A stretch of 64,000 nucleotides of DNA, from positions 86,476 to 150,475 of the forward strand of contig NZ_JACOFW010000003.1 in assembly GCF_014284305.1 (NCBI RefSeq), in the 5' to 3' direction. A model generated the notes under the pieces. It worked only from the letters and a program-made list of their open reading frames with translations. It ran no database searches and was not told where the DNA came from. How positions within the stretch are numbered: the stretch's first letter is position 1; each line of letters opens with the position of its first letter. Shown here in pieces: positions 9,641 to 62,520 of the stretch. The position numbers were made by a program, and so were the translations under genes. The DNA is from Affinundibacterium seohonense. GTDB lineage: Bacteria > Pseudomonadota > Gammaproteobacteria > Burkholderiales > Burkholderiaceae_D.

Positions 9641-10852
9641 ATGGATTTCGCGACACGAATCAAAACTTGGGCAACTAACAACCTAGCTTTCATCTTCGGA
9701 CTACTGCGCACTTTCAAACCGAATCTGATCATCAAAGAATTTGCACTGATCACGCGTTTTAGTGATGTACAAGAAGCCTTATCTCGCCCTGATGCACTAG
9801 GTGTCACTTATGCCGAAAAGATGGGTAAGATCACCGGGGGCAGCAATTTTTTCCTCGGCATGAACGACACCCCAACCTATACCCGCGATGTCTCAAATAT
9901 GCGTTTAGTCGCACGTCGTGACGATGTGGCACAAGTGATTGCGCCTATGGTAGAAAAATTCGCCCAACAGCTAGTCGCTAAAGCCGATGGCAAAATCGAA
10001 ATGGTGAGTCAACTCAGTAGTATCGTGCCTTGCCAATTTAGCGCAGAATATCTGGGGGTGGCCGGTCCAAGCCAGCAAGAATTATTTGACTCGACCAGCA
10101 GCATGTTTGCTTATTTATTTTATCCAGACAATCCTGACGAAGTCGATCAAGCCGCACTTGCCAACAGTGTCAAAACCTGCGCCTATCTTGATCAACTGAT
10201 CGCACAACGAAAACAAGAAGCCGCCGACGGACAAGTCAAAGACGACATCATAGGCCGCTGTCTGAAGTTGCAAGCTAGTGGTACGCCAGGCATGAGCGAT
10301 CTAGAAATTCGCAATAACATTATCGGCATCATCATCGGCTTAATGCCCACCACCTCGAAATGCGCGGTACTGGTGATCGACTATTTGCTAGATCATCCAG
10401 AGCTACTCGCCGGTGCGCAACAAGCAGCGCTTGCGAATGATGACGAGACACTACGTAAAACTATGTTAGAGGCCTTACGATTTAATAGCTTTGGTGCTGG
10501 AGTATTTCGCATTGCGAATGAAGACTATGTGATCGCCAGTGGCAGTTTCCGTTCTAAAAAAATCCCCAAAGGCAGCAAAGTGCTGGTGGCTTTGCAGTCA
10601 GCCATGTTGGATGGTCGTGAACTCGATGACCCTAAATCCTTCCGACTAGACAGACCCGATTATCAGTACATGCATTTCGGTTACGGCATGCATACCTGCT
10701 TCGGTCAATACATCAACATGGTGCAAATCCCCATGATTGTCAAAGCACTCTTACGTTGTAAAAATTTACGTCGCGCTGCTGGCGACGCTGGCAAGGTCAA
10801 GTATCAGCAAGCCTTTCCGGTCAGTTTGCATTTGGAATTTGATCAAAGCTGA
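9641..10852 (+). CDS. cytochrome P450
   Basis: 403 residues with GGGAGA before the ATG. The heme-binding loop HFGYGMHTCFGQ carries the axial Cys 353 and fits FxxGxHxCxG. The K-helix ExxR is E277-R280 (EALRFN). The I-helix region GLMPTTSK keeps the Thr pair but is otherwise unlike the usual AGxxTT. Length fits soluble bacterial class I P450s, which need ferredoxin and reductase; neither lies nearby. The patatin gene starts 65 bp downstream on the same strand, so the pair is probably one operon. A lipid or fatty-acid substrate is only an inference from that neighbour. Confidence 0.88.
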   Translation: MDFATRIKTWATNNLAFIFGLLRTFKPNLIIKEFALITRFSDVQEALSRPDALGVTYAEKMGKITGGSNFFLGMNDTPTYTRDVSNMRLVARRDDVAQVIAPMVEKFAQQLVAKADGKIEMVSQLSSIVPCQFSAEYLGVAGPSQQELFDSTSSMFAYLFYPDNPDEVDQAALANSVKTCAYLDQLIAQRKQEAADGQVKDDIIGRCLKLQASGTPGMSDLEIRNNIIGIIIGLMPTTSKCAVLVIDYLLDHPELLAGAQQAALANDDETLRKTMLEALRFNSFGAGVFRIANEDYVIASGSFRSKKIPKGSKVLVALQSAMLDGRELDDPKSFRLDRPDYQYMHFGYGMHTCFGQYINMVQIPMIVKALLRCKNLRRAAGDAGKVKYQQAFPVSLHLEFDQS

Positions 10853-10917
10853 ATGACTAAAATTCGCAATACCAAATCGCGAGTTGTTATCCCGTCTTGA
10901 ATTAAGGGCTGCACATC

Positions 10918-13200
10918 ATGAATAACAAGCATCAACTCCTGCACGACATCTTCAGTGCCGAAATTGAAGAAATCAACCAACGAAAAATCTTAAGCAAAGA
11001 TGGCGACATCATTTATCGTCGCGACCATGACTTAATCGATTTTGAAGCCATTTTACTGCCGCATGATAAGCGTTCAAAAGTGCTCAATGAGGTCATAGAG
11101 GAGATTAAAAATAGTCAATCTGCTTGGGAGGCTGATCAATCCGTCGCCCATCGCGGTCTGATCGGTCTGGCATTCTCTGGCGGTGGCATACGATCCGCGA
11201 CAGTCAACCTCGGCATCTTACAAGGATTACGTAAGCTAGGCTTACTCAAGGCGGTTGATTATCTATCGACCGTCTCTGGTGGTGGCTACATCGGTTCTTG
11301 TTATAGCGCAGTCAATGCAGCGCAAGCAAAGTTACATACGCAGGCGGACGAAAAAACCCAAGCGATCGCGCACGATGCCTTGTTTCAACACCAACCCGGC
11401 GTGCCCGAAAATCCAATTTTCCGCCATTTACGCAATAACGCTAACTACATGGCTCCCAATGGATTGATTGATGTACTACGGGTTCCCAGCGTATTTTTGC
11501 GTGGTATGGCGATCAATTTCTTTGTCGTCTTTCCTTTCCTTTTATTGTTCGCCGCGCTCAGTGCAATTCTACTTTCCGCGCCTATCAATTGGCACCATCA
11601 ATTAGCGACCTTGATTCGCGATCTTGGCATACCCTTGAGTAAAAGCAGCGAGCGGTTTTCTTTGACCATTACGGTCATCATGCTGACGGGTGCGGTCTAT
11701 CTTTTGTCGCCTCTGGTAAGCGTATTATTGCAATCCCAAATGCAGAAAGAAAAAGGAAATGCTGGCTGGTTGATTCGTAGTCGCGCCAGTCGTTTTTTAG
11801 GCTGGTGTTTGGCCGCAATTTTTGTCTGTGCCGCCTTGGAACTACAACCCTGGGCAATAGAACTTTATCGCGACAAGCTCGGTCAACAATTCAGCTTTCA
11901 AGAAATCGCCTTGCTAGGGAGCTTTGGCAGCCTCGGTTTAAGCGCGATTGCGGCCAAACTTTTGCCCAAGATTGCTAATGTATTTTCGCGCATGGGGATT
12001 TATCTTTTGGGCTTAATCGGCTTCTTAGTATTTTGGCTGTTTTATCTGCATCTCAGCAATGATCTACTCAGCGCAATGCCCACGCAGCAAGCTGGTTTTG
12101 CATGGGTCAGCCCAGCGGGATTTACCGCCATCGCGATGCTTCTGCTGGGTTTTAACTGGCTCACTGGCGATGCCAATTTCACTAGTATCAGTCGTTTTTA
12201 TCGTGATCGTTTAAGCAAAGCCTATATCTTTGGCTTCAATGCCAAAGACGAAATCGAACAAACTGATGATCTGAAATTATCGGCATTAGACTCCAATTTT
12301 GCGCCTTACCATCTACTCAATACCACCTTAAATCTAAGTCGCACCAGTCAAGCATATTGCGATGACCGACGCGGCGATTTCTTCTTTTTTAGCAAGCGCT
12401 ATATCGGCAGTATGAGTACCGGCTATTGCCAAACTAGCGAAATGGAGACACATACACCCGAGCTCAATTTGGCTACCGCAATGGCGATCTCCGCAGCAGC
12501 GGCAGCACCAAACTTAGGCAAGAGCACTATTAAGCCGCTGGTGTTTATTTTGGGCATGCTCAATATTCGCTATGATTATTGGTTGCAAAATCCCTATTGG
12601 ATCAAGCAAGGAAAGGCGTCTAGTGATCGCCCCAACCCTGGCTATTTTTTACGTGAACTCGCCAGTAATTTAAGCGCAGATACGGCATACGTCAATTTAT
12701 CCGATGGTGGTCATATTGAAAATCTAGGCATCTATGAATTGATAAGACGTGAATGCCGATTAATCATCGCAGGTGACAGCGAAGAAGATCTGGCGCTCAC
12801 GTTTTCTGGTCTTGCGGATCTTATTCGTCTAGTACAAATCGACTTTGGCGTCATCATCGTGATGGAAGGATTAGACGATATCCGCAATGGCAAACAACAC
12901 TACGCCATCGGCACAATTTACTATTGCAATGAAAAAGTCGGCAAATTAATCTACCTGAAAACCTCGCTGTTAGGTGACTTCAGTCTGCGCGATAGCTTGG
13001 CACCCGATGCTTATCTCACGTCCCAATTACGTAGCGACGATGTGGCATTTGATCACAATCCCTACATCGCCCATTATAAAACGCAGGATCCGACTTTCCC
13101 ACATCAATCCTCGGCCAATCAGTTCTATGACGAAACCCAATTTGAATGCTACCGCGCTTTGGGTTTTCAGATTGCGACGACGTCGTTGGGGCAACGCTAA
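10918..13200 (+). CDS. patatin-like phospholipase with multi-helix membrane insertion
   Basis: 760 residues. The patatin core is visible in two halves: oxyanion loop SGGGIRSATVNLG (Gly 88-90) and nucleophile motif TVSGGGYIG (Ser 120) near the N-terminus, and the catalytic Asp 596 in LSDGGHIENLG far downstream. Between them lie about six hydrophobic helices (roughly residues 195-410), so the catalytic domain is interrupted by a membrane region. The Ser-Asp dyad predicts acyl hydrolysis of phospholipids at the inner membrane. Similar large patatins occur in proteobacteria as hypothetical integral-membrane forms. It probably shares a transcript with the P450. Confidence 0.82.
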   Translation: MNNKHQLLHDIFSAEIEEINQRKILSKDGDIIYRRDHDLIDFEAILLPHDKRSKVLNEVIEEIKNSQSAWEADQSVAHRGLIGLAFSGGGIRSATVNLGILQGLRKLGLLKAVDYLSTVSGGGYIGSCYSAVNAAQAKLHTQADEKTQAIAHDALFQHQPGVPENPIFRHLRNNANYMAPNGLIDVLRVPSVFLRGMAINFFVVFPFLLLFAALSAILLSAPINWHHQLATLIRDLGIPLSKSSERFSLTITVIMLTGAVYLLSPLVSVLLQSQMQKEKGNAGWLIRSRASRFLGWCLAAIFVCAALELQPWAIELYRDKLGQQFSFQEIALLGSFGSLGLSAIAAKLLPKIANVFSRMGIYLLGLIGFLVFWLFYLHLSNDLLSAMPTQQAGFAWVSPAGFTAIAMLLLGFNWLTGDANFTSISRFYRDRLSKAYIFGFNAKDEIEQTDDLKLSALDSNFAPYHLLNTTLNLSRTSQAYCDDRRGDFFFFSKRYIGSMSTGYCQTSEMETHTPELNLATAMAISAAAAAPNLGKSTIKPLVFILGMLNIRYDYWLQNPYWIKQGKASSDRPNPGYFLRELASNLSADTAYVNLSDGGHIENLGIYELIRRECRLIIAGDSEEDLALTFSGLADLIRLVQIDFGVIIVMEGLDDIRNGKQHYAIGTIYYCNEKVGKLIYLKTSLLGDFSLRDSLAPDAYLTSQLRSDDVAFDHNPYIAHYKTQDPTFPHQSSANQFYDETQFECYRALGFQIATTSLGQR

Positions 13201-17519: not shown

Positions 17520-18314
17520 ATGACACCCCTCCCGCCTAAATATGTTGCTTCCAATCGTCCGGTCAATCAAAGGACCAGCCCACCACCTGATCCGGCGAAA
17601 GCAGCGATACATCCGCGCGTGCAAGAGCGAATGAACGCATTGAAAGCGAAACATCAATTCGGCCTTCCCTTGACGGAGCAATTACTTAGCGTCTACGGAA
17701 CTGCAAAGCCAACACAACTGACTCTCACCAAGATCACCGGCGGCCTGCTGCTGGCACTTTCTGGCACAGGCTTGGCGTTCGCCGCCATCGAAAAATCGAT
17801 CTTCCTCACCTGCGCGGCAGCATCAGGACTTTTACTTGGACTATTTGTTTTACTTCGACCAGGTTTACAAAAAACCGACGATACGAACCAGCATACCAAC
17901 TTGTTTGATCCAAGCAGTGTGGCAGCCTTTGACCGTGCTTTGGAACAAATCAGCGATGAGCTTGATGCCAAGTTTTTGACGCAATTAACATCGATCAAAG
18001 CGCAAATCATACGCATCGCTACACTCGCGAGTCGCCCAGATGTGAGCGCACAATTTTCTATCGAGGACCGGCATTATTTAAGCGAAAGTCTGCGTCGCTA
18101 CCTACCTGATACCCTGCAAAGTTATTTACAAGTACCGCTCAATGCGCGGGCTAACAAGATGGGCGACTTGAATCAAAGTCCCGACGAATTATTACATCAA
18201 CAGCTCAATTTATTACAGCAGGAATTTGATAAGCGCGAACACAAATTGATCGAGAATACTGCCGAACAATTACAGCATCAACAGCGTTTTTTGGAACAAA
18301 AAATCAAGAATTAA
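17520..18314 (+). CDS. membrane protein, weakly XpaC-like
   Basis: 264 residues. A Pro-rich N-terminus is followed by two closely spaced hydrophobic helices (about residues 70-90 and 93-115) and a long soluble helical C-terminal part ending in a Gln-rich coiled coil (LHQQLNLLQQEFDKREHKLIENTAEQLQHQQRF...). The segment SLRRYLPDTLQSYLQVP resembles a motif of XpaC-like proteins that often sit beside TelA-type toxic-anion-resistance proteins, but no telA is present. Function unknown; the family link is tentative. Confidence 0.6.
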   Translation: MTPLPPKYVASNRPVNQRTSPPPDPAKAAIHPRVQERMNALKAKHQFGLPLTEQLLSVYGTAKPTQLTLTKITGGLLLALSGTGLAFAAIEKSIFLTCAAASGLLLGLFVLLRPGLQKTDDTNQHTNLFDPSSVAAFDRALEQISDELDAKFLTQLTSIKAQIIRIATLASRPDVSAQFSIEDRHYLSESLRRYLPDTLQSYLQVPLNARANKMGDLNQSPDELLHQQLNLLQQEFDKREHKLIENTAEQLQHQQRFLEQKIKN

Positions 18315-18611: not shown

Positions 18612-19958
18612 ATGACGAATCAAAGTGTAGTGGTACATGCCAATCAAAGTTGGCTCGATACTGGTATTACCGTCTCGCCATCCAGCTCTCTGACCATCAG
18701 TTTTCAGACCGGCGCATGGACCGCAGACCCAAGTACCAATCATCAGCAATTATACGGACCCGCTGGAGACGCAGCGATCATCATTCCTGCGTCGGAACCT
18801 GGCTATCCCTTGGTTGGCGCGGCGATGGGCGCATTGGTGGGTCGTATAAACGATGGTCCCGTATTTTTGATAGGCGCTGGTCCTACTGTCTTGCCTAGTG
18901 GGCAATCTGGCAATTTATCGCTGTGCATCAACGATGACATTAACCATCTCTACGGTGCCGGACTGGCTGACAATCTCGGCCAAATCACTGTCTTCGTGTA
19001 CAGCACCAACACCTTGCCGATGCTAACCTACCCAGTTATCAATGAACCCGCACAAGTATCGCCAGCGGCAGCCGGTAGTGCGCTGGGTCCATTACAACAT
19101 TTGATCGGCACCTGGACAAATCAGCTCAAGGACACCGATGGTCTTCCGTATTCTTACAATGTGATGCCATTGCCTCAGGTAGATCCCAGCTCACCAACGG
19201 GATACATCTTAAAAAACTTTGCTTATTATGAGGAGCTAACTTTCTCCGCGATACACGGCAGCGCACCGAATCGCGGCGGCCTTGGCACACAGAATTGCAA
19301 TGTGCTGTTCTACGAACAACGTGTGTACTTTGCCGAAGGTCCGAATAAAAATGCATTGGTGCATGCAGAAAATGGATCTCTGTTATTCATCAACGATCAA
19401 TTACAGGCACTTGGCCCGTATGGTAATGGCGATCAACCGGGACTCGGGAATCAAACTGTTGCCAACAGTGTCGCGCCGACTCAGCAATTTAATCTGATTA
19501 AACAAATCTCAGTACCCCATGGGAATTCGATTTTGGCTGCAGGCACCTTTCAAGCACATACAGGCGCACCGCAAATTCCCGTCGTTTCTAGCTTGCCAAG
19601 CGGTGTGCCGACCACACAGTATGGGCAAATCGATCCGATCGCCAATCCCAATCCTGGCTACACACTCAATCCTAATCAAGCCTTAGCAGATGCGTTGTTG
19701 GCAGCACCAGTGACACAATTTATTGCACTCAATGTCAGTAGCGGCAACGGTGGTGGCGGTGTGACGAATATCGGCTTTGAACAACAGCATGCCAACGTCG
19801 ATCAGTATTCGTGCACTTACTGGATAGAAGCCCTCAACAACGCCACGGAATTTACGCAACTGCAGTACTCACAAACCATCATGATGCGTTTGCCAATTGC
19901 TGGCGACATTATCAGTTTTCCACACATCACCACGAACACCCTGACCAAAATACAATAA
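18612..19958 (+). CDS. PA-IL-like lectin domain fused to a nitrobindin/THAP4-like beta-barrel domain
   Basis: 448 residues. Residues 1-130 resemble the PA-IL (LecA) galactose-lectin fold: VVVHANQSWLDTGITVSP, an LTISFQTGAW strand, GPAGD, GALVGRI, then SGNLSLCINDD and ITVFVYS. Residues about 158-448 begin GPLQHLIGTWTN and continue with YYEELTFSAI; this opening is typical of THAP4/nitrobindin-like or lipocalin-like barrels, some of which bind heme. No signal peptide. It is first in a tight same-strand unit with the ferritin-like, MNIO and DUF2063 genes (14-bp gap to the next), so a role with those products is likely. Exact ligands are unknown. Confidence 0.65.
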   Translation: MTNQSVVVHANQSWLDTGITVSPSSSLTISFQTGAWTADPSTNHQQLYGPAGDAAIIIPASEPGYPLVGAAMGALVGRINDGPVFLIGAGPTVLPSGQSGNLSLCINDDINHLYGAGLADNLGQITVFVYSTNTLPMLTYPVINEPAQVSPAAAGSALGPLQHLIGTWTNQLKDTDGLPYSYNVMPLPQVDPSSPTGYILKNFAYYEELTFSAIHGSAPNRGGLGTQNCNVLFYEQRVYFAEGPNKNALVHAENGSLLFINDQLQALGPYGNGDQPGLGNQTVANSVAPTQQFNLIKQISVPHGNSILAAGTFQAHTGAPQIPVVSSLPSGVPTTQYGQIDPIANPNPGYTLNPNQALADALLAAPVTQFIALNVSSGNGGGGVTNIGFEQQHANVDQYSCTYWIEALNNATEFTQLQYSQTIMMRLPIAGDIISFPHITTNTLTKIQ

Positions 19959-19972
19959 CGAAAGGAAGCCTT

Positions 19973-21652
19973 ATGTCATCAATGACCCATCGCCATCTTG
20001 AGCAAGTTCCAACTGATCGCGCCGCCTTGCATCAGTTATTGCAATTGGCTGTCGAAGTGGAGCTCTTCACGATCCCTCTATACATGAGTTCACTGTATTC
20101 GATCCGCGGTATGTATCTGAACTCACCGACAGGTCAAAGTATGTGGCCAGGCATGAAACCAAACTATCAGGTCAGTTCCGCTAATCAGTATGCCTATAAC
20201 GCCATCTTCAGTGTGTATATTCAAGAGATGCTGCATCTGCAATTGGCCAGCAATTTATGCACGGCTGTGGGATTTACGCCGCAATTTCCAGCACTCGATT
20301 ACACCAGTTTTGGCAGCTCGATTCCCTGTATCGGTGATTTAAAAAATGTCAAAGGCTACGAAGATGTGCAAGTCAGATTGGGACCACTGGATCACAATCA
20401 GATGAAATTATTCTTAGCCATTGAGATGCCAGACTGGGAAGCCAATGACGATAATAATAATCGCCCCGCTGTGCCATTTCCTGTGGGCGCCAATGGTAAG
20501 GCAACGATCCCAGCCTCATTTGGTTCAATCGGACACTTATATCACTGCATAGAAGCCTACTTTGATCTTGAGTACGATGATAAAACCACGTTGTGGGACA
20601 AAGTGTTTACCGCTGATTCCGTACAAGTCGACATGTTCAATTTTAAATCGCAAAAAGAGCAGCATGCGGCTAGAGAATATCCTCAATTTCCCGTCAGCTT
20701 CAGCAGCAATTTAACAGCAAAAGACGCACGCAAAACGGCACGTGAAATGATCAGCGCGATTTTGGATCAAGGTGAAGGTGCCGTGGCCAACTCGGTGGTA
20801 CCAGGTCGATTCGTCCCGGCTGAACAAAGAATGGAAAAAGACTACAGCAAAAGCAATGCGATCGTACGTGCGCAATGGGATAAACAAAGCCATTATGATC
20901 GGTTTGCACTGGTGTACTCTTGGTTGGACATGATAGAAACTTGGCCGACTTGGTTAGCATCACGCCCAGCGGGCGCGGCATGGACTGCCGATGACCTATT
21001 ACTGGATCCGACGACTGCCACCTCAGCCGACATCGCAGCGGCACAGGCGCGCGCCACCGCCATGAATGCCGCCAGCACCGCAGCAGAAATCGATAATGCA
21101 CTGAGCCATAGTTACTGCAATCTGCTGGCCGCAATTGAATCCGCATGGAGCAACTCAGCGATCAGTTTTCCGGCAGCCGCGATGCAAGCCTTGTCAACCC
21201 GGGTGGCAACTGTTTGGGCCACTGGTGGCTCACCGAGCTTCACACCTGTCACCCCTAGCGTCATTGGTAATAATGCCCACGCCTGCCAAGGCTTAGATCC
21301 GAATAATCCTGGTACCAATAATTGCGCCAATGCGGTCATCCACACTTGTGCAGGCTCCAATAGTTGTGCCAATCAAGGTGGTTGCGGCTATCCACCGGAT
21401 ACTAGTCTGCCCGACTTTAATTCTGCAGCTGGCAATGGCGGTTGTGGCGCACCGATCCCAGTCGCCCAGATTCTGCATAATGGCACACCCGCCATCAACG
21501 TCAACGGTACTAACATCACCGCCAGCACCGGACAGAGTGTGTACGATACGGCGTGGACGGTCTTCCAGGCACGCTTTAGCGGCAATGAGAGCGTGCAAAA
21601 AGCGAACAAACCAACACCGAATAGCTTGCGTATCGTACTGCCACCAAGCTAG
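19973..21652 (+). CDS. ferritin-like (VioB-type) protein with Cys-rich C-terminal segment
   Basis: 559 residues from the ATG at 19973, preceded by AAAGGAAG. Residues about 5-290 form a ferritin-like di-iron domain of the VioB/RebD-associated kind: ALHQLLQLAVEVELFTIPLYM supplies a first helix with Glu ligands and IQEMLHLQLASNLC gives an ExxH-type second site. A C-terminal region follows with six Cys (438, 451, 459, 465, 471, 491) in Gly/Asn-rich context, e.g. NACxGL-like HACQGL, HTCAGSNSC and NQGGCG. This resembles the Cys motifs of bufferin-type (DUF2282) MNIO substrates. Since the next gene is an MNIO, I infer that this tail is the modification substrate, fused to the enzyme-like domain. Confidence 0.75.
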   Translation: MSSMTHRHLEQVPTDRAALHQLLQLAVEVELFTIPLYMSSLYSIRGMYLNSPTGQSMWPGMKPNYQVSSANQYAYNAIFSVYIQEMLHLQLASNLCTAVGFTPQFPALDYTSFGSSIPCIGDLKNVKGYEDVQVRLGPLDHNQMKLFLAIEMPDWEANDDNNNRPAVPFPVGANGKATIPASFGSIGHLYHCIEAYFDLEYDDKTTLWDKVFTADSVQVDMFNFKSQKEQHAAREYPQFPVSFSSNLTAKDARKTAREMISAILDQGEGAVANSVVPGRFVPAEQRMEKDYSKSNAIVRAQWDKQSHYDRFALVYSWLDMIETWPTWLASRPAGAAWTADDLLLDPTTATSADIAAAQARATAMNAASTAAEIDNALSHSYCNLLAAIESAWSNSAISFPAAAMQALSTRVATVWATGGSPSFTPVTPSVIGNNAHACQGLDPNNPGTNNCANAVIHTCAGSNSCANQGGCGYPPDTSLPDFNSAAGNGGCGAPIPVAQILHNGTPAINVNGTNITASTGQSVYDTAWTVFQARFSGNESVQKANKPTPNSLRIVLPPS

Positions 21653-21664
21653 ACATTGAAGTCG

Positions 21665-22633
21665 ATGACATCAGCAACTTTACCTCTTGCTCAAGTCGCT
21701 TGGACGACGAACGATAAGCAATCATGTAGCGGAAAGCGCAAGCCGGTACCCAACTTAGGTTTGGGTATCGGCTTGCGTCCCTGCCATTTTCAAGATGTTC
21801 TGCGTCACGAGCCTGGGCAAGCTACAGGCACAACTCACGCACCCGATTGGCTAGAAGTGATTTCCGAGAATGTCATGGATGACCACGGTCAGGCGCGACA
21901 AATTTTGCGGCAAATTGCCAAGCGATATCCCTTGGTATTTCACGGCGTCTCGTTATCGATAGGCAGTAGTGACCCTTTAAATATGCTGTATTTGCAGCGC
22001 CTAAAAGACTTGTGCGCAGAGTTTTCACCCGCCTGGATTTCGGATCATTTGTGTTGGACTGGTGTTGGTAGCATTAATAGTCATGATTTACTGCCACTTC
22101 CCCTAAATCAGGCAAGTCTGCGTCATGTGATTTCGCGCGTGCATCAGGTACAAGAGATATTAGGTCGCCGCTTGATTCTCGAGAATCCAAGCAGCTATCT
22201 CCACTTCAAAGAATCTGATATCCCTGAATGGGAATTTTTCAATATGCTTTGTGAGGCCACTGGCGCAGGTATCTTGTTAGATCTAAACAATGTCTATGTC
22301 TCCGCATTTAACCTAGGATTTCAAGCGCAAGATTATCTCAATCATCTCGACACCCACCATGTCACCCAAGTGCATCTGGCAGGACCACGTCATTATGGAA
22401 CGCATATCATCGATACCCACGACAGCCCGGTGGTGGACGAGGTATGGGGTTTGTATCGCCAACTCGTAGAACAAACCGGTGCGATTTCTACACTCTTGGA
22501 GTGGGATGCCGCCATTCCAGAATTTGCCGATCTGATGATGGAATTAGACAAGGCTCGCCACATCACAACTGCACAATTGTCAGCCAGATCCACGACCAAC
22601 AAACACGACTCAGCTTTGCCATTGGAATTATGA
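21665..22633 (+). CDS. MNIO family enzyme (DUF692; MbnB/TglH/ChrH-like)
   Basis: 322 residues from the ATG at 21665, 12 nt after the ferritin-like stop; a TTG at 21656 in the same frame is an alternative. Family motifs appear in order: LGLGIGLRPCHF, WLEVISENVM, FHGVSLSIGS, WISDHLCW, ENPSSY, LDLNNVYVSAFNLG, VHLAGPRHYG, IDTHDSPV and LLEWDAAIPE. The His, Asp and Glu residues in them are the multi-iron ligands of this TIM-barrel family. Known members oxidise Cys (or Asp, Asn) in peptide substrates, giving oxazolone/thioamide, thiooxazole and related products. Its stop overlaps the partner gene start by 4 bp (ATGA), showing coupling. Confidence 0.93.
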   Translation: MTSATLPLAQVAWTTNDKQSCSGKRKPVPNLGLGIGLRPCHFQDVLRHEPGQATGTTHAPDWLEVISENVMDDHGQARQILRQIAKRYPLVFHGVSLSIGSSDPLNMLYLQRLKDLCAEFSPAWISDHLCWTGVGSINSHDLLPLPLNQASLRHVISRVHQVQEILGRRLILENPSSYLHFKESDIPEWEFFNMLCEATGAGILLDLNNVYVSAFNLGFQAQDYLNHLDTHHVTQVHLAGPRHYGTHIIDTHDSPVVDEVWGLYRQLVEQTGAISTLLEWDAAIPEFADLMMELDKARHITTAQLSARSTTNKHDSALPLEL

Positions 22634-23517
22634 GCACGGGCATACAGACACATCAACAAGACCTGATAGCCTGCATCACTAGCGGCAAGCAGGAGGCGTT
22701 CACTCAGGCGGCTCAACACTTACGTCCGAATGCGTTCCTGAGTGCGACCCAGGCACTCGCCATCTATCGCCAAGGCTATCTTGCGCGCCTGTTGGAATGC
22801 TTACGTGCTGACTTCCCGCTACTCGTAAGCCATCTCGGCGAAACCTTGTTCAATCACTTTGCCACCGAGTACATCGCAGCACACCCTCCCACGTCCTACA
22901 GTCTGTTTGATCTAGGAGAACAATTTCCCGTGTATTTACAAAAGAGTTGCCCAGATTTAGCGCGATTAGATCGTGATCAGCGAGCACAATGTTTACTCCC
23001 CATCGAGCTAGCCAAACTAGAACGTCTGCAGCTACAAGTGCTGCGGGCTCAAGTCGATCACGACGCCATCATGGATGAACCAGACTATCAATCTGAGCAA
23101 GCCTTATTGGATTGTTGTGTGCGTGTGCCGACTACCTGTGCGCTGCTACAGACCGAACACCATTTGCCCGAGTATATCCAAACTTTAAAGCGAGCCGATG
23201 CCAACAAGGACCAAATCCAAGCACAAGTCGCTACGACTTATATCGTGGTGAGTCGCCCTCGTTATGTTGTGACAACGCAGGCACTCACAGACTGGCAGTA
23301 CATCTTTTTACAAACGATACAGTTACTGTCGACACCACATTCAGCACTTAGCATCGCCGATTTGATAGGACACTTAGAGGCTAGAGAAGAGATCAGGCGA
23401 GAATTTTTGATAGCAAATTTGTCGCTATGGTTACCTGTGGCTGTCAGCAAGGGCTATGTTTCTATCGAAAACCATCGCCTTGATTCCGCACTTAGTAAAG
23501 CCAAGCAATTCGTTTGA
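22630..23517 (+). CDS. MNIO partner protein (DUF2063)
   Basis: 295 residues from the ATG at 22630, which overlaps the MNIO stop; the frame is open upstream inside the MNIO gene but that part is a shadow. The N-terminal half is the DUF2063 putative DNA-binding domain: RQGYLARLLECLRADFPLLVSHLGETLFNHFATEYIAAHPPTSYSL and LFDLGEQFPVYL are diagnostic. The C-terminal half shows a less conserved fold with YIVVSRPRYVV. In characterised systems this partner binds precursor peptide and activates the MNIO. It ends the operon; the following 200 bp carry no gene. Confidence 0.9.
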   Translation: MSTGIQTHQQDLIACITSGKQEAFTQAAQHLRPNAFLSATQALAIYRQGYLARLLECLRADFPLLVSHLGETLFNHFATEYIAAHPPTSYSLFDLGEQFPVYLQKSCPDLARLDRDQRAQCLLPIELAKLERLQLQVLRAQVDHDAIMDEPDYQSEQALLDCCVRVPTTCALLQTEHHLPEYIQTLKRADANKDQIQAQVATTYIVVSRPRYVVTTQALTDWQYIFLQTIQLLSTPHSALSIADLIGHLEAREEIRREFLIANLSLWLPVAVSKGYVSIENHRLDSALSKAKQFV

Positions 23518-23575
23518 TGGGTGAATGCTTTTGGTTACTGAAGTCACGAAGGTAACTAAAGTACCTAAAATGAAC

Positions 23576-23678
23576 AAAGCCTGCAAATGCTTTGCAAACA
23601 CATGCGCAATGTATCGACGAACGTCTTACGAAGCGTTAGTACCACAAGGGTGAGTTCACAAATCGATCTGCAGGCTTT
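23576..23678. repeat. 10-bp inverted repeat enclosing a 103-bp span
   Basis: AAAGCCTGCA at 23576-23585 and TGCAGGCTTT at 23669-23678, in the gap after the DUF2063 gene. It might be a structured RNA end or a small element relic; there is no T-run. Confidence 0.3.
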
Positions 23679-23716: not shown

Positions 23717-24028
23717 TTACTTCAAACGCATATCATTTTTTACTGCCGACACGCCTTTGACATTGCGCGCCAAAGAAACTGCCTTATCGATATTCGCGAT
23801 ACTGGTAACAAAGCCGCTCAATTGCACTGTGCCTTTGAAAGTCTCGACATTAATTTCAGCGGACTTGAGTGTCGGCTCATTCAAAAACTCAGATTTCACT
23901 TTGGTAGTGATCCAAGAATCATCGATATATTCGCCGGTACTTTCTTGCTTCTTGGTCGCAGCACAGCCTGCTAAGGCTACTAATGAACTGGCGAAGATCA
24001 CTGCAGCGATTTTTTGAATTGTTTTCAT
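23717..24028 (-). CDS. BON-domain lipoprotein
   Basis: 103 residues. Lipoprotein signal with lipobox LAGC (Cys 22), then one BON domain: DDSWITTKVKSEFLNEPTLKSAEINVETFKGTVQLSGFV...ANIDKAVSLARNVKGVSAVKNDM. BON domains, as in OsmY, are thought to bind membranes and typically mark osmotic or envelope-stress proteins. AGAAAGA lies before the ATG. It opens the envelope-stress cluster that runs to 35 kb. Confidence 0.85.
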   Translation of the reverse strand: MKTIQKIAAVIFASSLVALAGCAATKKQESTGEYIDDSWITTKVKSEFLNEPTLKSAEINVETFKGTVQLSGFVTSIANIDKAVSLARNVKGVSAVKNDMRLK

Positions 24029-24133
24029 ATAGTCTTTCTATTGGATTGAGTAAATAGTGGGTAGTGACGAGTTATGACATCGAACTCTGGCACAAGGGGT
24101 GTCAACATTTTGCAAAAAGAACAGCAAATAATC

Positions 24134-24697
24134 TTACTTACCGTATTTTTTCTTGGCGTTCGCAACACAAGCATCTTTTGCATTGCCAGCCAAGCCATCG
24201 CATTTTTCTAAAGCGACTTTATATTCCGCATTGAGTTTGTCAGCGGCTTCATCTTTACGAGCATCGAGTACTTTCTTGTCAGCTTTGGCAGTTGCCATTG
24301 CCGCGACTTTGACAGATTTGGCTTTCTTGATGCAGACATCTTTGTCATTGCCAACCATGGATTTGCACTTCGCTTCATCCACTTCGTAATCCGCTTCGGC
24401 AATCTTTTTGATGGCAGTCGCACGGGCACTTATCGTGTTGTGAAAATTGGCATAAGCATTCTCTTCCAGATGCACACGGACAGCAGTCGCCTCTGCTTGG
24501 CAAATATCTTTAGGATTGTCTGCCAGCGTTTTACATTTAGCAGCAGCAATTTTGTAATCCGCCTCTGCCTTAATTTTTTCATTCTTAAAAATTGTAGCGG
24601 CATCAGGTTCGGCGGCATCAAGTTCGGCGGCAATGGCATTGACACTGAAGCCAAACACACTGGCGCAGACCATTGATATCAGTAGAGTTTTTTTCAT
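24134..24697 (-). CDS. exported protein with three Cys-pair repeats
   Basis: 187 residues from the ATG at 24697; an upstream extension to 24775 was rejected because the signal peptide starts at MKKTLLISM and ends near AIAAELDA. The mature part is helical and Lys/Ala-rich, with three internal repeats of about 27 residues: ADYKIAAAKCKTLADNPKDIC, ADYEVDEAKCKSMVGNDKDVC and AEYKVALEKCDGLAGNAKDAC. Each has two Cys about 11 apart in a hairpin-like arrangement, so three disulfide-locked helical hairpins in the periplasm are likely. I know no function for this family. It shares an upstream region with two recurrent palindromes with the divergent gene at 24924. Confidence 0.7.
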   Translation of the reverse strand: MKKTLLISMVCASVFGFSVNAIAAELDAAEPDAATIFKNEKIKAEADYKIAAAKCKTLADNPKDICQAEATAVRVHLEENAYANFHNTISARATAIKKIAEADYEVDEAKCKSMVGNDKDVCIKKAKSVKVAAMATAKADKKVLDARKDEAADKLNAEYKVALEKCDGLAGNAKDACVANAKKKYGK

Positions 24698-24824
24698 TTT
24701 TGCTTTCGTTATTAGAACAAGTGAATCAAAGGAATAGGCTTCATCGCCCGCACAGCTTATTGCGTCAGCGCCCAAGATAAATGCATCGACCTAGTCTTTA
24801 TACCGAACTACAAGGACGCCCTCT

Positions 24825-24838
24825 GTTCGCTATCCAAC
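24825..24838. promoter_or_regulatory. recurrent palindrome site 3 (GTTCGCTATCCAAC)
   Basis: Fits GTNCGN4CNNAC in the divergent promoter gap between the Cys-repeat protein and the glycine-zipper lipoprotein. It is paired with site 4, 34 bp away. Confidence 0.55.
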
Positions 24839-24858
24839 ATAGTATTTTTTTTGCTTGG

Positions 24859-24872
24859 GTGCGTTGGCGAAC
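24859..24872. promoter_or_regulatory. recurrent palindrome site 4 (GTGCGTTGGCGAAC)
   Basis: Fits GTNCGN4CNNAC with symmetric arms GTGCG / CGAAC. It lies 52 bp before the ATG at 24924. Confidence 0.55.
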
Positions 24873-24923
24873 AGAAATGATTTCAATTTTTTTCTATTAT
24901 CAGGAACCTAACCAGGAGCGATC

Positions 24924-25364
24924 ATGAAAAGAACCACCCTACCCCTCGCACTAATTTGCATTGCCAGCTTAACGGCCTGCGCAAATAATGCACCGTATCA
25001 AACCTCCCGTCCGTATGAAAATGGACAAACGCAATACGGTGCGCACGGCACCATCGAATCAATTAATTGGGTGGGCAATGACCGTCCAAGTAGCGGTGCT
25101 GGTGCCGTGGTCGGTGGCATTGTCGGCGCGATCGTTGGCAATCAAGTTGGCGGCGGTACTGGGCGTGCAGTCGCCACCGTGGCTGGCGGTATCGGCGGTG
25201 CTGTGATTGGCAATAATTTAGAAAAAAATCGCAGCGACAATTTTTATCAAATTCGAATTCGTATGGACGATGGCGGCCATCATGTTGTACATCAAGACGA
25301 CATCGGCAATCTGCGCACTGGCGACAGAATACGTATCGCCAATGGCCGCGCCTATTTGTTGTGA
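24924..25364 (+). CDS. glycine-zipper 2TM lipoprotein
   Basis: 146 residues, AGGAG before the ATG. Lipobox LTAC (Cys 19). A glycine-zipper hairpin follows (GAGAVVGGIVGAIVGNQVGGG, then ATVAGGIGGAVIGNNLEKN), and the C-terminal strand unit YQIRIRMDDGGHHVVHQDD...GDRIRI is shared with the proteins at 5370-6047 and 28929-30071. Its compact form is close to the SlyB/17-kDa-antigen type of outer-membrane lipoprotein. Two palindromes upstream suggest co-regulation with the other stress genes here. Confidence 0.85.
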   Translation: MKRTTLPLALICIASLTACANNAPYQTSRPYENGQTQYGAHGTIESINWVGNDRPSSGAGAVVGGIVGAIVGNQVGGGTGRAVATVAGGIGGAVIGNNLEKNRSDNFYQIRIRMDDGGHHVVHQDDIGNLRTGDRIRIANGRAYLL

Positions 25365-62279: not shown

Positions 62280-62356
62280 CGGAGTGTAGCGCAGCCCGGT
62301 AGCGCACCTGGTTTGGGACCAGGGGGTCCAAGGTTCGAATCCTTGTACTCCGACCA
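62280..62356 (+). tRNA. tRNA-Pro (anticodon TGG), copy 1
   Basis: 77 nt with CCA. Acceptor CGGAGTG / TACTCCG, anticodon loop TTTGGGA, T-arm AAGGTTCGAATCCTT. Identical to copy 2. Confidence 0.97.
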
Positions 62357-62362
62357 AATTTG

Positions 62363-62394
62363 AAGGATCGTTGAGAAATCGACGATCCTTTTTA
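62363..62394 (+). terminator. terminator after tRNA-Pro copy 1
   Basis: Stem AAGGATCGT / ACGATCCTT with loop TGAGAAATCG, then TTT. Confidence 0.8.
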
Positions 62395-62443
62395 GTTTCA
62401 CCAATTTCGAGAAAGTAATCGACTCGATTTGTTAGCAGTTTTT

Positions 62444-62520
62444 CGGAGTGTAGCGCAGCCCGGTAGCGCACCTGGTTTGGGACCAGGGGGTCCAAGGTTC
62501 GAATCCTTGTACTCCGACCA
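62444..62520 (+). tRNA. tRNA-Pro (anticodon TGG), copy 2
   Basis: 77 nt, identical to copy 1 from CGGAGTGTAGC to the encoded CCA, 87 bp downstream of its end. A local tandem duplication. Confidence 0.97.

Follow-up and report, generated by a model that had tools for sequence, protein, structure and literature searches.

A ferritin-like protein with an internal cysteine core as candidate substrate of the MNIO encoded beside it in a conserved three-gene cassette

The stretch of DNA analysed here, which we call the window, comprises 64,000 nucleotides of an Undibacterium genome (contig NZ_JACOFW010000003.1) and carries four genes in tight succession on the + strand, separated by gaps of 14 bp and 12 bp and, last, joined by a 4-bp overlap, just as the original prediction had described them. 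The second of these genes (19973..21652, +), which begins 14 bp behind gene 1, encodes a ferritin-like protein of 559 aa with a PF12902 domain (103.7 bits, cut-off 22.3). We refer to this protein as FER; its label 'VioB-type' derives solely from the PF12902 domain, which VioB, an enzyme of the violacein pathway, also carries. The third gene (21665..22633, +) encodes the MNIO, a BufB-type maturase that matches PF05114 (335.6 bits, cut-off 25) as well as the NCBIfam bufferin maturase family NF050167 (340.1 bits, cut-off 310); its ATG start at 21665 leaves the 12-bp gap, and translation could instead start from the in-frame TTG at 21656. The fourth gene (22630..23517, +) overlaps the MNIO gene by 4 bp and encodes a DUF2063 partner of PME-type 1 (PF09836, 70.3 bits, cut-off 27.2). 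Gene 1 (18612..19958, +, 448 aa) encodes a protein with a possibly PA-IL-like N-terminal domain and a nitrobindin-type heme-binding barrel (NF040572, 253.2 bits, cut-off 150) and is an accessory gene outside the conserved cassette described below. The subject of this work is FER as the proposed substrate of the MNIO encoded directly behind it.

We searched genome contigs with an alignment of FER and found 134 relatives by means of two scaffold patterns; these were ranked by tblastn against the whole query, its Cys core included, and the best 80 of the 134 were taken as named loci, the remaining 54 staying outside the set. The 80 loci, which partly overlap our set of Undibacterium relatives and which together with the window make up the 81 rows of the FER alignments, come from Pseudomonadota (alpha, beta and gamma), Bacteroidota, Actinomycetota, Acidobacteriota and Ignavibacteriota, the last two represented by a single metagenome-assembled genome each. 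An MNIO gene follows FER directly in 77 of them, and in the other three the contig ends at the gene or within 100 bp of it. The DUF2063 gene is next in line in 76 of the 80, its absences coinciding with a contig end at or near the edge. The conserved unit is thus one of three genes, FER, MNIO and DUF2063. Clustering of the neighbouring genes around the cassette in the same loci revealed no other gene cluster at a fixed place: one cluster occurs in 13 loci at varying positions and the others are confined to 6 loci, so that conserved regulators, DoxX proteins or transporters beside the cassette were rejected. In one locus (L046:4957-8743 (-), genome G042) FER and the DUF2063 gene are fragmented over several reading frames, with the neighbouring MNIO gene intact, which may reflect decay or sequencing error.

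The original prediction had joined all four genes into one layout, in which the product could be displayed or carried with a lectin as part of a single functional system. The 14-bp spacing in the window and the same layout in three relatives agree with this idea. However, a homologue of gene 1 precedes FER only in the window and in these three close relatives (3/80 named loci), which belong to one Undibacterium clade; it was not found before the cassette in the other 77, some of whose contigs are short upstream, and the window's genome has a paralogue of the heme-barrel half at another site (C12). Moreover, genome G002 possesses gene 1 at the same place while FER, MNIO and DUF2063 are all absent and about 150 bp stand in their stead. 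We therefore rejected gene 1 as a member of the unit and regard a four-gene system as hardly credible. The genes flanking the G002 site are 94–99% identical to those of the cassette-bearing genome G032 (L031), and both a gain of the cassette in the others and a loss in G002 would fit. As to the nature of gene 1, it matches the heme-binding family NF040572, and its second half is a barrel of nitrobindin type with a best fold match of Z 15.6 over 160 residues. The lectin half was not recovered by Pfam, in which the N-terminal domain has no match, and appears solely as a PA-IL fold match (Z 11.2 over 109 residues) of a low-confidence model with a mean predicted local distance difference test score (pLDDT) of 57.5. 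Sequence searches of the PDB with the two halves of gene 1 gave nothing useful. In L050:6996-12373 (+), a homologue of the heme-binding half of gene 1 is found at a distance of about 3 kb from a PF12902 protein of 443 aa that lacks the core, and a like pair occurs in L224.

We next consider FER itself, whose length ranges from 559 to about 780 residues over the loci, start codons being uncertain. An AlphaFold2 model built from 51 sequences reached a pLDDT of 81.7 and a predicted template modelling score of 0.87, and its scaffold matches PDB entry 3hl1 with Z 31.3 over 278 residues at a root mean square deviation of 2.6. This entry is CC_0557 of Caulobacter vibrioides, a PF12902 protein that has the fold, E30 and the ExxH and DQGEG motifs in common with FER but measures 317 aa against 559 and aligns with model residues 13-424 only, hence without the core region. 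The structure comparison covered residues 1-423, and a lack of fold match for the loop and the C-terminal part is no evidence of a new fold. Five residues, E30, E85, H88, E151 and E268, are invariant in all 81 rows, and because they sit on a ferritin fold a ferritin-type metal site in FER is plausible.

Behind this scaffold lies the Cys core (H436-C491; 21278..21445, +), which reads HxCQG ... CA ... HTCxGSNxCxxQGGCG ... GGC and contains six of the ten Cys of FER, at positions 438, 451, 459, 465, 471 and 491. All six are identical in 81/81 aligned proteins, and the patterns C-x5-C-x5-CG and H-x-C are kept in 80/80 loci, so the recurrence of the gene set with the same Cys spacing, proposed earlier as a check, was indeed observed. 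Variation is seen in the distance between the first and second core Cys (11-19), in the stretch preceding the last Cys, which also contains extra Cys, and in a seventh Cys (NxC) present in 77/81 proteins and absent from the window's clade; outside the 80 loci, the core of genome G225 has His in place of C465. In the FER model the pLDDT falls below 50 only at residues 1-3, 429-440 and 449-492, which makes the core the sole long stretch predicted to be disordered. While the positions of the six Cys at residues 438-491 were confirmed, their description as a tail was not, because 68 partly conserved residues come after them and the core is thus an internal loop. This C-terminal segment (residues 492-559; 21446..21649, +) is seen both in the alignment and in the AlphaFold2 model, where blocks of residues 491-559 have mean pLDDT values of 68-81, and V523, A527 and R553 are invariant in 51 rows.

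The core was compared with the bufferin precursors Buf1 and Buf2, for which we used 29 of 30 Buf1 and 18 of 21 Buf2 loci, keeping only rows that showed the expected motif. Models of DUF2282 and BufA2 gave no match in the window FER and at best 16.9 bits in its relatives against a BufA2 cut-off of 60; as every match stayed under the cut-off, membership of the core in BufA2 was rejected. Profile comparison yielded scores of 24.0 with Buf1 and 24.8 with Buf2, which none of 200 column shuffles equalled in either case, although the hhalign probabilities were only 25 and 36%, respectively. The local similarity extends over 24 columns for Buf1 (C[YQ]G...NxCA...HxCAG) and 27 columns for Buf2. Homology of the core to Buf1 and Buf2 is likely but not certain. 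A core of the same layout was also encountered on a distant PF12902 protein that is again followed by MNIO and DUF2063 genes (L217:5059-9034 (-), genome G369). This core has extra Cys and a CMGLNSCK start, which to the eye resembles Buf2 even more closely, and it is accompanied by a further Cys pair near the very C-terminus of the protein. In a tree the G369 scaffold falls among core-less relatives (support 99/98, on a long branch), while its MNIO falls inside the FER-linked clade (99) and connects to the branch of the window at 90. Two separate fusions of the core and MNIO module to PF12902 scaffolds may thus have taken place, with the proviso that the core-bearing scaffolds could still share a single origin (approximately unbiased test, p 0.123); in this comparison L210 is represented by its ORF from L232.

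We also examined a panel of relatives, 98 genomes with the window's own counted. FER with the Cys core is present in 17 of them, and a FER-type MNIO (at least 318 bits, 52-100% identity to the window MNIO) in 16 of these and in no other genome; in the seventeenth, G017, the contig stops inside FER. The next three MNIO matches of the panel (295, 287 and 282 bits; 47-51% identity) adjoin BufA2 matches. The identity gap between the two groups is narrow (52 versus 51%), and they are better separated by bits (318 versus 295) and by the tree. Genome G020, which is 94% complete, has the FER-linked MNIO as its sole MNIO and no Buf1 or Buf2 match, so no alternative substrate of these two kinds exists there. 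In the window's genome a second MNIO lies on another contig and adjoins its own Buf1 gene. The same association held in samples of the class and phylum: with the window excluded, all four core-bearing PF12902 loci have MNIO and DUF2063 genes, while no MNIO was seen in the 16 core-less PF12902 loci read over stretches of 6.4-15 kb (a seventeenth, in G129, was read only to 1.5 kb and not counted). In G129, G343, G455 and G323 the Pfam domain is matched only weakly and in part, which leaves 13 of these 16 as solid. The core was found in at least 3 of 398 phylum genomes (own genome included, with at most 13 first-look candidates scored per genome) and always on a PF12902 protein.

We also looked for a separate precursor peptide, whose absence the original prediction had noted in the window, and found none in the orthologous loci either. 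Models of Buf1 and Buf2 built from relatives matched none of 12,762 open reading frames (ORFs) of at least 25 aa in the 80 loci; their recovery of all 47 precursors from which they were built is a control by construction. In 77 loci the gap separating FER from the MNIO gene contains no small ORF that encodes at least three Cys, and a model of the core, run against ORFs of at least 60 aa in the 80 loci, matches FER only. As regards a hidden small precursor between 17.8 and 24.2 kb of the window, nearly all small Cys-containing ORFs either overlap one of the four genes or an adjacent gene or run opposite to them, and this possibility was dismissed. Downstream of the DUF2063 gene there are a 42-aa ORF (23525-23653, +) and a 26-aa ORF (23565-23645, -), the former of which was rejected as a precursor, as the best match to it in L031-L033 or L259 had an E value of 1.0 and was not convincing.

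Co-occurrence alone, it must be said, would fit FER being a partner enzyme as well, namely an oxidative enzyme that acts with the MNIO on an unlinked substrate, its Cys segment serving as an unmodified zinc or iron site or as a docking element. The ferritin fold with its five invariant residues offers a plausible metal site for such an activity, and Antoine et al. (PMC12452194) regard some of the proteins whose genes precede those of MNIOs as enzymes. That no other precursor was found in the 80 loci argues against it, as does G020 for the two precursor types searched there, and so do the joint occurrence of core and MNIO, their joint absence from the core-less loci read, and a resemblance of the core to Buf1 and Buf2 beyond all 200 shuffles. 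We hence consider this explanation improbable and FER very probably the substrate of the MNIO. The earlier suggestion that the Cys segment of the ferritin-like protein is what the MNIO modifies gains strong comparative support from the invariant Cys and their spacing, from the co-occurrence, from the MNIO-free core-less loci and from the phylogeny of the enzyme.

This phylogeny is based on a 129-row tree made by a quick method with a midpoint root, in which the branches leading to several Buf1 rows are very long (up to 3.29). The 80 FER-linked MNIOs and the MNIO of L217 are on one side of a branch with a Shimodaira–Hasegawa-like approximate likelihood ratio test support of 99; this clade stands beside the Buf2 MNIOs (97), and the Buf1 MNIOs are on one side of another branch (97). 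The motif residues H93, E173, N174, D206, H237, D250, H252, E279 and D281 are all present in 81/81 FER-linked MNIOs, and the NF050167 cut-off is passed by all eight that were scored (the window and 7/7 counterparts). The residue after the proposed catalytic Asp, Ala282 in the window, is Ala in 78 and Gly in 3 of the 81, versus Asp in 18/18 Buf2 MNIOs and Thr in 25/30 Buf1 MNIOs. We equate Ala282 by motif with a specificity site reported in PMC13097082 to be Phe in Lys-Cys enzymes and Asp in Cys-Lys enzymes. Ten out of ten DUF2063 counterparts exceed the cut-off of PF09836. As regards an RRE-type domain (a recognition element) in the partner, NGO1945_C matches 3/10 counterparts, all below cut-off; the HvfC model scores 33.9 on the window protein against a cut-off of 142, and a PDB sequence search with this protein returned nothing useful.

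Taken together, we propose, with a probability of roughly 70%, that FER, MNIO and DUF2063 constitute a system for a ferritin-like metalloprotein with a built-in core of the bufferin/captophorin type that is matured by its own MNIO. FER itself would be the ribosomal precursor, whose ferritin fold presents a disordered internal loop that contains the six invariant Cys. The DUF2063 partner would recruit FER and offer the loop to the dedicated BufB-type MNIO, which in turn would oxidise several core Cys. By analogy with bufferins and captophorins the products would most likely be 5-thiooxazoles, a chemistry that we favour by a modest degree. The modified protein would stay whole and the loop would chelate a soft metal, of which Cu(I) is the likeliest, thereby serving in buffering or in redox handling; we put the chances of metal (Cu) binding as the function of FER at even. 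As for the location, a crude hydropathy test for a Sec signal peptide (maximum over 12 residues of at least 1.6 within the 30 residues preceding helix A) detected a hydrophobic stretch in 0/81 FER rows versus 44/47 BufA. When the whole longest FER ORF is considered, such a stretch occurs in 2/81 (L098 and L116), within in-frame N-terminal extensions of 90 and 230 residues that may be non-coding. Because no signal peptide was seen and neither a protease nor an exporter is conserved beside the cassette in the 80 loci, FER is probably cytosolic and its product probably remains whole in the cytoplasm.

In another explanation, the modified loop is a protein-derived cofactor or an internal metal ligand of a ferritin-like enzyme and the MNIO is an enzyme maturase not concerned with metal buffering. 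In its favour, the core is internal with a partly conserved segment after it, no conserved protease or exporter was found, and the divergence of the scaffold parallels that of the MNIO (r = 0.89, 78 loci), a correlation that adds little because the loci share ancestry. Against this, we know of no substrate or activity for the PF12902 branch to which FER belongs, the prediction leaves the loop disordered and does not allow it to be positioned at the metal site, and the core resembles that of metal-buffering bufferins. We judge this explanation to be unlikely. A related idea, which we put forward tentatively and regard as less likely than not, is that MNIO chemistry, instead of yielding a secreted or periplasmic peptide metallophore, matures an intact cytosolic metalloprotein. 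The thiooxazoles of its loop would form a cofactor derived from the protein or a metal site of its own that acts together with the neighbouring ferritin-type site, and the core-plus-MNIO module may have been fused to PF12902 scaffolds on two occasions.

Apart from the ambiguity of co-occurrence discussed above, several points weigh against our proposal of a built-in core matured by the MNIO. The core of FER reaches no family cut-off, and the window FER has no NCBIfam match at all. FER is also unlike established bufferin precursors in its size of at least 559 aa, in showing no signal peptide and in bearing a core that is not terminal. According to Antoine et al. (PMC12452194), PME-type 1 partners go with signal-peptide precursors, a correlation that the FER cassette would break. 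No copper gene or regulator is conserved around the cassette in the 80 loci. The sigma-F promoter that drives bufferins in Caulobacter was absent upstream of FER in 80/80 loci when sought as the exact motif (GTAACC-N16-CGAA, spacer 15-18); this motif is the Caulobacter one, about 10 of the 80 loci belong to Caulobacter or its family, and PMC3511200 allowed two substitutions. The set of loci is itself biased toward core-bearing proteins, since the core was part of the query used for the tblastn ranking. Lastly, the sequences show the gene order, the co-occurrence, the invariant Cys, the clade and the motif residues of the MNIO and a search for precursors that found none, while the modification of FER, and with it the Cys concerned, the chemistry, the metal, the location and the role, is predicted from them.

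The surroundings of the operon in the window contain further genes. Upstream, positions 9641-13200 hold a cytochrome P450 (PF00067) and a patatin-like protein (PF01734), counterparts of which lie upstream of gene 1 in L031-L033 and L259. The gene at 17520-18314, upstream of gene 1 here, has homologues (36-38% identity) downstream of the cassette in L031-L033 and downstream of gene 1 in L259. After the operon (23717-25364) follow a BON-domain protein on the minus strand (23717-24028) and a protein that by eye is glycine-zipper-like (24924-25364); in L031-L033 a different gene takes the place of this pair. BON and glycine-zipper-type proteins are listed near bufferin clusters in PMC12636315. A tandem pair of tRNA-Pro(tgg) genes is located at 62280-62520.

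To our knowledge, the characterised MNIO substrates are short peptides. The question of MNIO action on full-size proteins was raised by Antoine et al. (2025, PMC12452194), who propose that MNIOs may modify proteins. As that paper already puts forward bufferin fusions and proteins as substrates, the notion of protein modification by an MNIO is not novel. The cassette makes this question directly testable, as it provides one candidate substrate with six invariant Cys, an adjacent dedicated enzyme pair and counterparts in five phyla. If our proposal is true, the reported rule that links the DUF2063-type partner to a signal-peptide precursor would break. A modified FER would be a metalloprotein uniting a ferritin-type site with a copper-type chelator. 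The FER-linked MNIOs, for their part, show yet another type of residue at the site reported to govern specificity.

When compared to known systems, the cassette has the gene order of the BufABC operons of the bufferins Buf1 (DUF2282) and Buf2 (6/12 Cys) and of the 'captophorins', with a Cys-rich precursor, a BufB-type MNIO and a DUF2063 partner, as described in PMC12452194 and PMC13097082. Six conserved Cys are found in both Buf2 and the FER core, which is locally similar to Buf1 and Buf2. Unlike bufferins, FER is a large ferritin-like precursor whose core is internal and below the family cut-offs and on which no signal peptide was seen; unlike the bufferin maturases, the FER-linked MNIO occupies a separate clade and has Ala at the specificity site where Buf2 enzymes have Asp and most Buf1 enzymes Thr. 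The TIGR04222 proteins of PMC12452194 are, like FER, large, signal-peptide-less, proposed MNIO substrates, but they are membrane proteins with C-proximal Cys segments and a PME-type 2 partner or none, whereas FER combines a ferritin fold with a PME-type 1 partner. We also rejected FER as a member of adjamnio-1 to -3 or of cluster I as these are described in the main text of PMC12452194, since cluster I proteins have 122-293 residues, adjamnio-1 and -2 go with PME-type 2 and adjamnio-3 has a signal peptide; FER may figure undiscussed in the supplementary lists of that paper. The words 'ferritin' and 'VioB' are absent from its main text, and among the matches listed in a search of the open literature, supplementary tables lying outside it, there was no paper that connects MNIOs with proteins of the ferritin-like or VioB type. 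Judging by the open papers searched, a family of ferritin-like substrates that bears its core internally and has an MNIO clade of its own in five phyla is apparently undescribed. The bufferin fusions reported in PMC12452194 (Buf1|Cytochrom_C|FGE-sulfatase, MerC|Buf1, MerC|Buf2 and Buf_EGKCG|EF-hand_5) place a bufferin domain on a larger protein, as is the case in FER, but none of them is ferritin-like. Whereas fusions of Buf1 and Buf2 are given there as few instances, one type of FER fusion recurs in five phyla together with its own MNIO clade.

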